Below are positions 38,725 to 47,408 of a stretch of 64,000 bases of DNA, in pieces; position 1 is the stretch's first letter, and the number at the start of each line of letters is the position of its first letter. This stretch comes from Roseomonas aeriglobus. Lineage in GTDB: Bacteria > Pseudomonadota > Alphaproteobacteria > Sphingomonadales > Sphingomonadaceae. The translations under genes were made by a program, and so were the position numbers. The notes under the pieces were generated by a model. It saw only the letters and a list, made by a program, of their open reading frames with translations. It was not told the origin of the DNA and ran no database searches. The stretch spans positions 3,407,001 through 3,471,000 of the forward strand of contig JAFHKN010000002.1 in the NCBI GenBank assembly GCA_016937575.1. The letters are read 5' to 3'.

Positions 38725-39825
38725 TTAAGCGCCGGCCAACTCCGCGCGACCACCAAGCCAGACATGGGTGCACAACTGCGCCTCGGGCGTATCGGTCGCC
38801 TCCAGCGCAGCGACCGTTACCCAGCCTTCGCTACGCAGCTTGGCGCCTTCGGCCGGGTCGGTGCCGACCGGCAGGAACAGCCGCCGCCGCTCGGGCGTGC
38901 GCGCCAGGCTGCCCAGCACGGGATCGAGGAACAGCGACATGCCGACCGCGGGTTCCTCGCGGCCGTCGGCGTGCAGGATGACATAGCTGCCGCCGCGCCC
39001 GATCTCGCGCAGCGCACCGGCCGCGAAGATCGAGAAGCCGAACCAGCTCTGATATTCGAAGCCGTGGCGTTCGGTCGGATCGAGCGTCAGCTGGGTGCCG
39101 GCGGGCAGCGCTGCGGCGATCTGTTCCAGCCCGTCGATGCGGCCTGCCAGCGCGCCGCCGGTGTCGTGCGCGCGCAGCCGCGCGATGGCGGCATCGAACG
39201 GGCCGGCGGCCTCAATCAGTGGCAGGTACGTCGCATCGATCGCAGCGACGCGTCCGGCGTCCTTCGCATCGAGCGCTTCGCGGAGCTCGGTCAGGCGCGC
39301 ATCGGGCCAGTTCTCGGCCAGCGTCGGCACCAGGTCGGGCAAAGTGAAGTCGACCGACACGCCGGCGATTCCCGCCTGGGTCAGCGCCTCGACCGCGACC
39401 GACACGACCTCGCGCGCGGCGGCGACCGAATCGAGGCCGATCAGCTCGATGCCCAACTGACGCATCGCGCGCGCAGGGTTGAGGTCGCTGCCGCGCAGTT
39501 TCAGCACCGGGCCGGCGTAGGAGAGGCGCAAGGGGCGCGGATGATGGCCCATGCGCGTCGCAGCTATGCGGCCGACCTGTGCGGTGATATCCGGCCGGAT
39601 CGCCAGATTGCGCTGCGACACGGGATCGACGAACCGCACCGCGCCGTGGGCACCGCCCGCCTTCAGCCGCGCGCTGAGTTCATCCTCGAACTCGGCGAGC
39701 GGCGGGTCGACCTGCTCGTATCCGTACCCGCGCGCGACATCGAGCACGCCCCGCTCGATCCGCGCGGCGACATCCGCCAGCGGCGGCAGGCGATCGTCGA
39801 ACCCTTCAGGGAGGAGGCCGGTCAC
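38725..39825 (-). CDS. hisZ: ATP phosphoribosyltransferase regulatory subunit HisZ
   Basis: HisRS-like subunit that activates the short HisG enzyme at the first step of histidine synthesis; 366 residues. MTGLLPEGFDDRLPPLADVA opens the protein, with class II synthetase-like motifs in RFVDPVSQRNLAIRPDITAQ and GRIAATRMGHHPRPLRLSYA, and the late REIGRGGSYVIL. The start codon is GTG at 39825 and overlaps by one base the TAG of the DUF559 gene, so translation may now depend on that inserted gene. hisG is not in the window, and the purA gene I would expect next to hisZ in sphingomonads is replaced by ku-ligD (inference from synteny memory). Confidence 0.92.
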   Translation of the reverse strand: MTGLLPEGFDDRLPPLADVAARIERGVLDVARGYGYEQVDPPLAEFEDELSARLKAGGAHGAVRFVDPVSQRNLAIRPDITAQVGRIAATRMGHHPRPLRLSYAGPVLKLRGSDLNPARAMRQLGIELIGLDSVAAAREVVSVAVEALTQAGIAGVSVDFTLPDLVPTLAENWPDARLTELREALDAKDAGRVAAIDATYLPLIEAAGPFDAAIARLRAHDTGGALAGRIDGLEQIAAALPAGTQLTLDPTERHGFEYQSWFGFSIFAAGALREIGRGGSYVILHADGREEPAVGMSLFLDPVLGSLARTPERRRLFLPVGTDPAEGAKLRSEGWVTVAALEATDTPEAQLCTHVWLGGRAELAGA

Positions 39826-40211
39826 TATAGCCCTCTCCCCTGCGGGGAGAGGATTGGGAGAGGGGCAGACGTCACGGCACCCAGGATCGTTTGCAGAACC
39901 CCGTCCAAATTCGTCATCACATCAGCATTGGTAAAGCGCAGCACGCGATAGCCCTGTCTTTCAAGCACAGCGGTCCGCCGCGCGTCGTAAGCCTCGCTAA
40001 TGGCGTGCGTGTCGCCGTCAACCTCGATGACAAGGTTGTGGCTGCGGGCAACGAAGTCGGGGATGGCGCGGCCGCGGACAGTTTGGCGGACGAACTTGAT
40101 GCCGTTCAGGCGTTTGGCGCGGATGGCGAGCCAGAGACGGGTTTCGGGTTCGGTCATTCCGAAGCGGAGGGCACGGGCTCGCTTCAACAACTCCCTGTCG
40201 ATTTGCGGCAC
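39825..40211 (-). CDS. DUF559-domain protein (Vsr-like endonuclease fold) carried by a palindromic element
   Basis: A 128-residue protein starting from a GTG (MPQIDRELLKRARALRFGMT) with the DUF559 core: EPETRLWLAIRAKRL, NGIKFVRQTVRGRAIPDFVA, HNLVIEVDGDTH and RRTAVLERQGYRVLRFTNADV. The fold is that of very-short-patch-repair/PD-(D/E)XK endonucleases, with candidate catalytic acids D (IPDF) and E-x-D (IEVDGD). The Shine-Dalgarno and GTG lie in the right palindrome arm, and the last ~13 residues (APLPILSPQGRGL) and the TAG come from the left arm. It sits between serA and hisZ. Biological activity is unproven. Confidence 0.8.
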   Translation of the reverse strand: MPQIDRELLKRARALRFGMTEPETRLWLAIRAKRLNGIKFVRQTVRGRAIPDFVARSHNLVIEVDGDTHAISEAYDARRTAVLERQGYRVLRFTNADVMTNLDGVLQTILGAVTSAPLPILSPQGRGL

Positions 40212-40248
40212 GGCCCCTCTCCCAACCCTCTCCCCATAGGGGAGAGGG
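39831..40248. mobile_element. palindromic element carrying a DUF559 gene (418 bp)
   Basis: The left arm 39831-39865 (CCCTCTCCCC, TGCGGGGAGAGG, GGGAGAGGGG) and the right arm 40212-40248 are inverted relatives. The right arm holds a 29-base block at 40207-40235 that is identical to 41916-41944 in the 103-bp copy of the same family. The DUF559 gene takes the place of that copy's short spacer. No transposase or target duplication is visible. Confidence 0.7.
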
Positions 40249-40262
40249 CTTTTATGTGGGAC

Positions 40263-41840
40263 TCAGAACGACAGCGCCATCGCGGTCTTCACCCCGCCCA
40301 GCGCCTTGACCTTTGCCAGCAGGTCCGGCGTCACCGCTTCGTCGACCGACAACAACAGCACCGCCTCGCCACCGGCTTCGCGGCGACCGAGGTGGAAGGT
40401 GCCGATGTTGACGCCCGCTTCGCCCAGCAGCGAGCCGAGACGCCCGATGAAGCCCGGTGCGTCCTCGTTCACGACATACAGCATGTGACCGACCAGATCG
40501 GCCTCGACCTTGATCCCGAACAGCTCGACCAGCCGCGGGGCGCGGTTGCCGAACAGGGTGCCGGCGACCGAGCGTTCGCCCGCGTCCGTCTTCACCGACA
40601 CGCGCAACAGCGTGTGGTAATCGCCTTCGCGTTCCGTGCGGACCTCGCGCACTTCGATGCCGCGTTCCTTGGCCAGGAACGGCGCGTTGACCATGTTCAC
40701 CGTGTCGGTCTGGGTGCGCAGGAAGCCCGCCAGAACTGCGCTGACGATCGGCTTCTGGTTGACCTCGGCGGCAGCCCCCTCGCTGTGGATCGAGATGCGC
40801 GGGATGGCGCCGGTCGACAGCTGGCCCACCAGCGAACCCAGCTTTTCGGCGAGCGCCATGTACGGCTTCACCCGCGGCGCTTCCTCGGCCGAGATCGATG
40901 GCGAGTTGAGCGCGTTGGTGACGCCGCCGGTCATCAGGAAGTCGGCCATCTGCTCGGCGACCTGGATCGCGACATTGACCTGCGCTTCGCTGGTCGAGGC
41001 GCCCAGGTGCGGGGTCGCGACGAAGTTCGGGGTGCCGAACAGCGCATGTTCCTTGGCCGGTTCGGTCACGAACACGTCGAGCGCGGCGCCGGCGATGTGG
41101 CCCGAATCGAGCAGCTCCTTCAGCGCCGCCTCGTCGATCAGCCCGCCGCGCGCGCAGTTGATGATGCGCACGCCCTTCTTGGTCTTGGCAAGGTTTTCGG
41201 CCGACAGGATGTTGCGGGTCTGGTCGGTCAGCGGGGTGTGGAGCGTGATGAAGTCGGCGCGCGCCAGCAGCTGGTCGAGCTCGACCTTCTCGACGCCCAG
41301 TTCCACCGCGCGCTCGGGCGACAGGAACGGATCGAAGGCGATGACCTTCATCCTGAGACCCAGCGCACGGTCGGCGACGATCGAGCCGATGTTGCCCGCG
41401 CCGATCAGGCCCAAGGTCTTGCCGGTCACTTCGACGCCCATGAAGCCGTTCTTCGGCCACGTCCCCGCCTGGGTCTGCGCATTGGCTTCGGGCAGCTGGC
41501 GGGCGAGCGCGAACATCAGCGCAATGGCGTGTTCGGCGGTGGTGATCGAGTTGCCGAAGGGGGTGTTCATCACCACCACGCCCTTGGCCGACGCGGCGGG
41601 GATATCGACGTTGTCGACGCCGATGCCGGCGCGGCCGACGACCTTCAGGTTGGTGGCGGCGTCGAGGATCGCCTTCGTCACCTTGGTCGAGCTGCGGATG
41701 GCGAGCCCGTCGTAATCGCCGATGATCGCGATCAGTTCTTCGGGCGTCTTGCCGGTGATCTCGTCGACCTCGACGCCGCGCTCACGGAAGATCTGCGCGG
41801 CCTTGGGGTCCATTTTGTCGCTGATGAGGACTTTGGGCAT
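40263..41840 (-). CDS. serA: D-3-phosphoglycerate dehydrogenase
   Basis: First step of serine synthesis: 3-phosphoglycerate to 3-phosphohydroxypyruvate with NAD+. The 525-residue length is that of the long form with an intervening domain and a C-terminal ACT domain (GFIGRLGSLLGEAGVNIGTF). Substrate and NAD motifs are RSSTKVTKAILDAATNL, GRAGIGVDNVDIPAASAKG, GLIGAGNIGSIVADRALG, and the catalytic Arg/Glu/His set in NCARGGLIDEAAL and TPHLGASTSEAQ. It follows serC after a 126-bp gap that contains a 103-bp palindrome, so serC-serA co-transcription would pass through that element. Confidence 0.97.
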   Translation of the reverse strand: MPKVLISDKMDPKAAQIFRERGVEVDEITGKTPEELIAIIGDYDGLAIRSSTKVTKAILDAATNLKVVGRAGIGVDNVDIPAASAKGVVVMNTPFGNSITTAEHAIALMFALARQLPEANAQTQAGTWPKNGFMGVEVTGKTLGLIGAGNIGSIVADRALGLRMKVIAFDPFLSPERAVELGVEKVELDQLLARADFITLHTPLTDQTRNILSAENLAKTKKGVRIINCARGGLIDEAALKELLDSGHIAGAALDVFVTEPAKEHALFGTPNFVATPHLGASTSEAQVNVAIQVAEQMADFLMTGGVTNALNSPSISAEEAPRVKPYMALAEKLGSLVGQLSTGAIPRISIHSEGAAAEVNQKPIVSAVLAGFLRTQTDTVNMVNAPFLAKERGIEVREVRTEREGDYHTLLRVSVKTDAGERSVAGTLFGNRAPRLVELFGIKVEADLVGHMLYVVNEDAPGFIGRLGSLLGEAGVNIGTFHLGRREAGGEAVLLLSVDEAVTPDLLAKVKALGGVKTAMALSF

Positions 41841-41855: not shown

Positions 41856-41958
41856 CCCTCTCCCCTTCGGGGGAGAGGGTCGGGGAGAGGGGAATTCTGC
41901 TATCGTGGGAGATGAGGCACGGCCCCTCTCCCAACCCTCTCCCCTGATGGGAAGAGGG
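41856..41958. repeat. 103-bp palindromic element (CCCTCTCCCC family), minimal copy
   Basis: Arms at 41856-41892 and 41920-41958 with a ~27-bp spacer between. The right arm shares the 29-base identical block (41916-41944) with the DUF559 element at 40207-40235. It lies between serC and serA. Confidence 0.82.
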
Positions 41959-41966
41959 CTATAAGG

Positions 41967-47384: not shown

Positions 47385-47408
47385 CCCTCTCCCCTTCGGG
47401 GGAGAGGG
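47385..47408. terminator. CCCTCTCCCC hairpin between convergent pheA and nudC
   Basis: CCCTCTCCCC TTCG GGGGAGAGGG is a 10-bp perfect stem with a tetraloop; it is flanked by TTTT-GAAG on the left, so on the minus strand it could end nudC transcription. It belongs to the same family as 39831 and 41856. Confidence 0.65.

Follow-up and report, generated by a model that had tools for sequence, protein, structure and literature searches.

The window analysed here, a 64,000-nucleotide stretch of the Roseomonas aeriglobus genome (contig JAFHKN010000002.1, forward-strand positions 3,407,001 to 3,471,000), contains a small gene of the DUF559 family (PF04480) between hisZ and serA, and the subject of what follows is this gene and the palindromic repeats that bracket it. 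The original prediction had set the gene between inverted arms, and it does lie between two mutually inverted 37-nt units (checked by script), GCCCTCTCCCCTGCGGGGAGAGGATTGGGAGAGGGGC on the plus strand at the left and GCCCTCTCCCCTATGGGGAGAGGGTTGGGAGAGGGGC on the minus strand at the right. In each unit a purine tail, TTGGGAGAGGGGC, follows a hairpin of the form CCCTCTCCCC-loop-GGGGAGAGG, and both tails point toward the gene; both units are assigned to class A. The arms do form an inverted pair, as had been proposed, and are two separate hairpin-plus-tail repeats rather than one large palindrome. The motif GAGAGGGG ends two bases ahead of the GTG where a Shine-Dalgarno sequence had been seen; that spacing is short for a Shine-Dalgarno sequence, and the GTG itself is an unproven start. 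As claimed, the final 13 residues of the protein (APLPILSPQGRGL) are encoded within the left arm; the stop codon, also assigned to it, falls just beyond the arm and overlaps the GTG of hisZ by one base.

The 29-base identity between 40207-40235 and 41916-41944 is exact, as first reported, and includes GGCACG beyond the 37-nt core. Its second copy belongs to a gene-less version of the arrangement (41856-41959, between serC and serA), in which two units stand tail-to-tail about a 29-nt spacer; this version had been correctly noticed, its length being 104 nt and not 103 bp. As single-stranded DNA the gene-less doublet folds far better than shuffled sequences (z -5.8). The arrangement in the window is the anatomy of repetitive extragenic palindrome (REP) units and of the paired REPs called REPINs. 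The class-A hairpin pattern, with up to two mismatches allowed, occurs at 46 sites in the genome, versus one site for the same pattern read backwards. A fixed-loop pattern scan of the window caught only one unit because loop length varies, and was not used as a test; an Rfam search of four loci found no family reaching the gathering threshold. Another class-A-type hairpin, CCCTCTCCC, stands at 47385-47408 of the window with no partner unit nearby.

Table 1. Positions, in window coordinates, of the DUF559 gene, its arms, the gene-less doublet and the adjoining genes
Feature	Positions	Strand	Remarks
DUF559 (PF04480) Vsr/EDxHD-type nuclease gene	39825..40211	-	128 aa, GTG start; profile and fold matches
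REP-like unit, class A, 3' of the DUF559 gene	39830..39866	+	hairpin outward, tail gene-ward
REP-like unit, class A, 5' of the DUF559 gene, inverted copy	40213..40249	-	GAGAGGGG immediately ahead of GTG
Gene-less doublet, first REP unit, between serA and serC	41856..41892	+	
Gene-less doublet, spacer	41893..41921	.	29 nt
Gene-less doublet, second REP unit	41922..41959	-	within the exact 29-base identity
serA	40263..41840	-	anchor for comparing empty sites
hisZ	38725..39825	-	neighbour of the DUF559 gene on the opposite side

The gene belongs to PF04480 (E 2e-34; 118 bits against a curated Pfam cut-off of 20.6). The fold is that of Vsr and the EDxHD homing endonucleases, the closest characterised fold relatives being I-Bth0305I (PDB 3r3p) and Vsr (1cw0), and comparison with I-Bth0305I finds the catalytic-domain fold together with its E, D, H and D residues. 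Searches of PADLOC and PHROGs gave weak matches only (E 0.003 or worse), and low-scoring matches to toxin B subunits in the fold search were taken as chance. At the level of codon comparison the nuclease is under purifying selection, dN/dS of 0.06-0.38 in nine pairs indicating that its function is kept.

Inverted arms at DUF559 genes across genomes

The genus was surveyed in 61 genomes, 57 of which contain DUF559, with 300-bp flanks and a single fixed arm-score threshold of 38. Matched inverted arms bracket 86 of 98 DUF559 loci (70 of 79 in a first set and 16 of 19 further loci). The gene in the window scores 61, a value matched by none of 1592 random segments and none of 115 short open reading frames (ORFs) from the DUF559-locus stretches; the threshold itself is passed by three of the former and one of the latter. 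The nine misses among the first 79 loci comprise six with a one-sided pair, two with diverged arms and one near a contig end. The window's own genome holds seven DUF559 genes, five of them lying between matched, inverted units (several classes are represented) and two with a unit pair confined to one side.

Genes for GIY-YIG nucleases (L173-L202, within the genus), which had first been picked as a neutral control, proved a second positive, with inverted arms at 22 of 30 loci; small accessory genes for PIN nucleases were therefore added as a control and, treated identically, have inverted arms at none of 30. Corrected scores for loci shortened by a contig end, 18 for a PIN locus (L223) and 32 for a DUF559 locus with a shared 16-nt tail (L047), both lie below 38. 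The palindromes of the GIY-YIG genes differ from those of DUF559, being mostly of the CCGTTCGTCCTGAGC..GTCGAAGG type; a GTTCG/CGAAC core (CCGTTCG..TCGAAGG type) is present in the arms of 20 of 21 tested loci, and arm similarity again tracks protein similarity (1 of 2000 permutations; 21 loci). Arms as such are accordingly not exclusive to DUF559, since the GIY-YIG genes carry arms of another family.

Beyond the genus but within its class, probably Alphaproteobacteria, 19 of 30 loci (30 genomes in 29 families) pass the threshold, against 0 of 164 controls, in a sample made up of the best-scoring locus per genome rather than drawn at random (a match was present in 64 of the 190 genomes). Among records of a plasmid collection, where "plasmid" is the collection's label and some records carry chromosomal genes, seven of the 12 examined (out of 38 that matched) pass; among the seven are records of two Deinococcus, one cyanobacterium and Sinorhizobium. 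In a Pseudanabaena record of this collection (L257) the DUF559 gene lies between long inverted arms scoring 128, each with two hairpins of C/G runs.

The arms fall into several classes, and pairwise comparison indicates that similar nucleases carry similar arms. The significance of this pairing was assessed by shuffling arms among the paralogues inside each genome, a procedure that preserves relatedness: for the 70 threshold-passing loci the nearest-neighbour arm similarity is 0.786 versus a permuted mean of 0.488, with none of 2000 permutations reaching the observed value, and after removal of homologous-site pairs (42 loci, 17 genomes) it is 0.614 versus a mean of 0.431 and a maximum of 0.580 in 5000 permutations. 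Each nuclease type has its own palindrome type, even across unrelated sites.

Class-D doublets and dispersed repeat load

The association also holds when the search starts from the repeats. Facing class-D tails 345-375 bp apart were collected from the 61 genomes with no requirement for a gene between them; 25 such gene-size pairs exist, in 22 genomes, and DUF559 lies inside all 25, the spacing having been chosen after five wide pairs were seen, three of them known DUF559 loci, which makes the search exhaustive but not blind. A control spacing of 245-275 bp yields one class-D pair, without DUF559. The window's genome has 21 class-D pairs whose members face each other within 2 kb, drawn from 65 of the 67 counted sites; 20 of them have spacers of 28-32 nt, and the remaining one, with a spacer of 362 nt, holds DUF559. 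Spacer sequences differ among the class-D mini-doublets, and the bases past the tail are only loosely conserved between gene-bearing arms and mini-doublets (50 arms, 12 distinct mini spacers).

These results, taken with the preceding ones, speak against the notion that REPs are common intergenic insertion targets or terminators between which DUF559 genes merely happened to land. REPs are indeed known targets of insertion sequence (IS) elements (PMC1525189, as far as that source is drawn on here), and passive placement is nevertheless very improbable and was rejected on the PIN, ORF, random-segment, pairing and reverse tests: arms are absent from the PIN genes and nearly so from the short ORFs, arm class matches nuclease similarity, and every gene-size class-D pair found contains DUF559.

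Class-D repeats occur in 53 of the 61 genomes, and their load varies with the gene: the median number of dispersed class-D sites is 22.5 where an exact gene-size class-D pair is present (22 genomes) and 3 where it is absent (39 genomes; p 0.00016), and the four genomes without any DUF559 have 1, 0, 0 and 2 sites. The known mobiliser of REPs is the REP-associated tyrosine transposase (RAYT), and the repeats could be imagined to be spread in trans by transposases of this Y1 (HUH) type. Y1_Tnp genes are present in only 5 of the 61 genomes, on which ground RAYT was rejected as the general mobiliser, and neither the GTAG nor the CGTC tag is found on either strand of the four units in the window; spreading in trans by RAYT/Y1 enzymes is accordingly the least probable of the explanations considered. 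The window's genome does have a single Y1_Tnp gene, on a different contig (G000 C4:32485-32841, L266).

Occupied and empty sites

DUF559 lies just downstream of serA in at least 24 of the 61 species (22 of them profile-confirmed). Of 30 serA loci, 27 gave resolved serA-hisZ gaps, 10 with the element and 17 without, and four of the 17 gene-less gaps are only 22-30 bp long; in a direct comparison the window's genome has 438 bp where G038 has 20 bp. The original prediction would have fallen if empty sites were never found or if arms were not enriched around DUF559; both possibilities, named beforehand, were checked, and empty sites exist at the predicted place and the enrichment is pronounced (86 of 98 loci, against no PIN locus out of 30 and one short ORF out of 115). 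REP doublets likewise have filled and empty versions between genomes. Candidate filled/empty comparisons number 96, a redundant set whose inserts were selected for REP motifs; the flanks are 74-93% identical in the 25 listed, and target duplication is not readable at these sites because the flanks are too diverged. No doublet occurs in any of the 17 gene-less serA-hisZ gaps (15 inspected whole and two scanned for core motifs), the gap of G049 holding a lone hairpin.

Similarity among the serA-site DUF559 proteins partly tracks that of serA (rho 0.39, 22 genomes); a second comparison (19 genomes) gave rho 0.20, with 86 of 2000 Mantel permutations as high. G014 and G013 share 92% identity in serA and 61% in DUF559, and the DUF559 of G014 is closer (75%) to that of the more distant G033. 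The picture is less that of a freely jumping element than of a gene resident at a few sites and inherited slowly.

The main rival explanation is a homing-like route, because the DUF559/EDxHD fold and GIY-YIG are both homing-endonuclease folds (stated in the part of PMC3943268 used here). A free-standing endonuclease would cut the gene-less site and repair would copy the gene in, the REPs serving as recognition site and short homology arms and the spread of doublets being a by-product. The relationship to I-Bth0305I and Vsr, the bracketing of a second homing family by REPs, a serA-hisZ site occupied in many species and empty in others, and the affinity of the G014 gene for that of G033 instead of its close relative's are all in keeping with this. 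Homing, however, is allelic, and class-D REPs are scattered over dozens of sites; none of the gene-less serA-hisZ gaps holds a doublet; and the similarity of the serA-site genes partly follows serA. We regard the homing route as unlikely. DUF559 also departs from I-Bth0305I, with which and with Vsr it shares its fold, in being a stand-alone domain of about 110-130 aa bracketed by REPs, in the window within an intergenic gap of about 440 bp, whereas I-Bth0305I is described as long and multi-domain.

A possible nuclease-driven repeat system

The explanation favoured here, to which we assign a probability of roughly 0.6, is that the DUF559 gene makes up one REPIN-like element together with the inverted REP-like units on its two sides, and that its nuclease spreads the cognate REPs in the manner of a RAYT. 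The gene would sit between two copies of its own palindrome that stand tail-to-tail; the Vsr/EDxHD nuclease would most likely recognise its cognate REP by the hairpin and purine tail, probably on a single-stranded or extruded doublet, and would cut beside the REP, short REPIN-like doublets with a spacer of about 30 nt then being copied into new intergenic sites. Gene-less doublets would be the non-autonomous form, and the gene a slowly inherited resident maintaining its own REP class, a RAYT-like role filled by an unrelated enzyme. The binding, cutting and copying in this scheme, and cutting as the step that spreads REPs, we infer.

Many bacterial genomes are rich in REPs, and a RAYT is generally paired with its own REP class. 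RAYTs (TnpA_REP) and their REP/REPIN populations, also called REPtrons (PMC8049555, PMC3733652 and PMC2817692, each used in part), are characterised by short, diverse doublet spacers, a long-lived enzyme gene and more repeats where the gene is present (in the part of PMC8049555 used). The DUF559 systems are alike in having a small, long-lived gene between REPs, flanked by its own REP class at 86 of 98 loci; non-autonomous, dispersed inverted doublets with short, diverse spacers; and more doublets in the presence of the gene. They are unlike in that DUF559 has the Vsr/EDxHD restriction-endonuclease-like fold whereas RAYT is an HUH/Y1 tyrosine transposase, and in having several differently addressed paralogues per genome. 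The RAYT/REP analogy drawn in the original prediction thus extends to class pairing, fixed-spacer doublets and class-D load with the gene-bearing element; mobilisation itself we only infer.

Miniature inverted-repeat transposable elements (MITEs) are mobilised by IS transposases. These systems resemble the present one in combining a gene-bearing element with terminal inverted repeats and gene-less derivatives that share its ends (IS/MITE background in PMC3733652, used in part); they differ from it in that the ends of the DUF559 element are REP hairpins, its nuclease is of another superfamily and no target duplication is readable.

Several observations weigh against nuclease-driven spreading. 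The computational analysis saw no transposition, new insertion, cleavage or target duplication. Arms fall below threshold at 12 of the 98 genus loci and, among the plasmid-collection records, at the loci of E. coli, Photobacterium and Azospirillum brasilense and at two of the three from cyanobacteria; the genus genome counts ignore relatedness. Five genomes without an exact gene-size class-D pair hold 47-100 class-D sites; one of these repeat-rich genomes, G021, has a sampled DUF559 gene with D-type arms (L092). A DUF559 gene matching the 18 class-A-type sites of G031 was predicted, but its two DUF559 loci (L233, L089) proved to have arms of classes B and C; these repeats are apparently orphans, or owe their spread in trans to another factor. 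The site counts that include the 18 of G031 were used without a backward-read control, since the purine pattern is nearly identical read backwards and offers no real control for them. Whether a genome has the serA-site gene is reflected only weakly in its class-A count (p 0.017, after subtraction of 3 per filled genome).

A different role, directed to the host, would have a domesticated Vsr-like nuclease process or limit REP hairpins in the service of genome stability or regulation, with the arms as a regulatory or address signal. Low dN/dS is compatible with it, as is the Caulobacter DUF559 protein VsrA (CCNA_02930), which has its Pfam domain in common with the gene in the window and to which an SOS response is ascribed when a cytosine methyltransferase is lacking (PMC12907096, used in part). 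VsrA has been studied for methylation, and the strings "palindrom" and "transpos" are absent from the main text of PMC12907096. Neither several differently addressed paralogues in one genome nor the higher class-D load with the gene-bearing element is readily explained by host service, which we hold to be quite improbable.

The pairing of enzyme type with palindrome type suggests that these nucleases spread and maintain the repeats, a role for which the only enzymes known to date are transposases of an unrelated class. What appears new is a RAYT/REPIN-like system with a different enzyme; among the matches listed by a literature search, which covered few subscription papers and no preprints, titles and the openings of abstracts link no DUF559 or Vsr-like nuclease to REPs, and an earlier description is possible. 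The mobiliser has been left open for REP families that lack a RAYT, such as the CGTC family (PMC3733652, in the part used). A family of unknown function is tied here, enzyme class to repeat class, to REP populations in genomes where Y1 transposases are mostly missing, and DUF559 gains a concrete candidate substrate. If the nuclease does spread the repeats, it follows that a repeat population spanning the genome can be established and kept up by a cutter of homing type instead of a transposase; proof of such spreading would make this a categorically new reading. A broader proposition, for which the odds are somewhat short of even, is that small stand-alone nucleases of homing fold (DUF559/EDxHD and, separately, GIY-YIG), and not transposases, each drive and maintain their own palindromic doublet populations in Alphaproteobacteria, Deinococcota and Cyanobacteriota as a general class; such a class would explain much of the abundance of intergenic palindromes in these genomes.

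Two further sites deserve mention. In G046 (C3:452005-452414, L252), a locus chosen solely for its two inverted class-A-type tails, about 390 bp apart, DUF559-like pieces in differing frames lie between the tails, apparently a decayed copy of the gene. In a Sphingomonas parapaucimobilis record (L254) a DUF559 element separates sufB from sufC, and in the window's own genome (L002) one apparently stands ahead of sufC, as read from downstream sequence; the sufB-sufC interval is probably another conserved DUF559 site.
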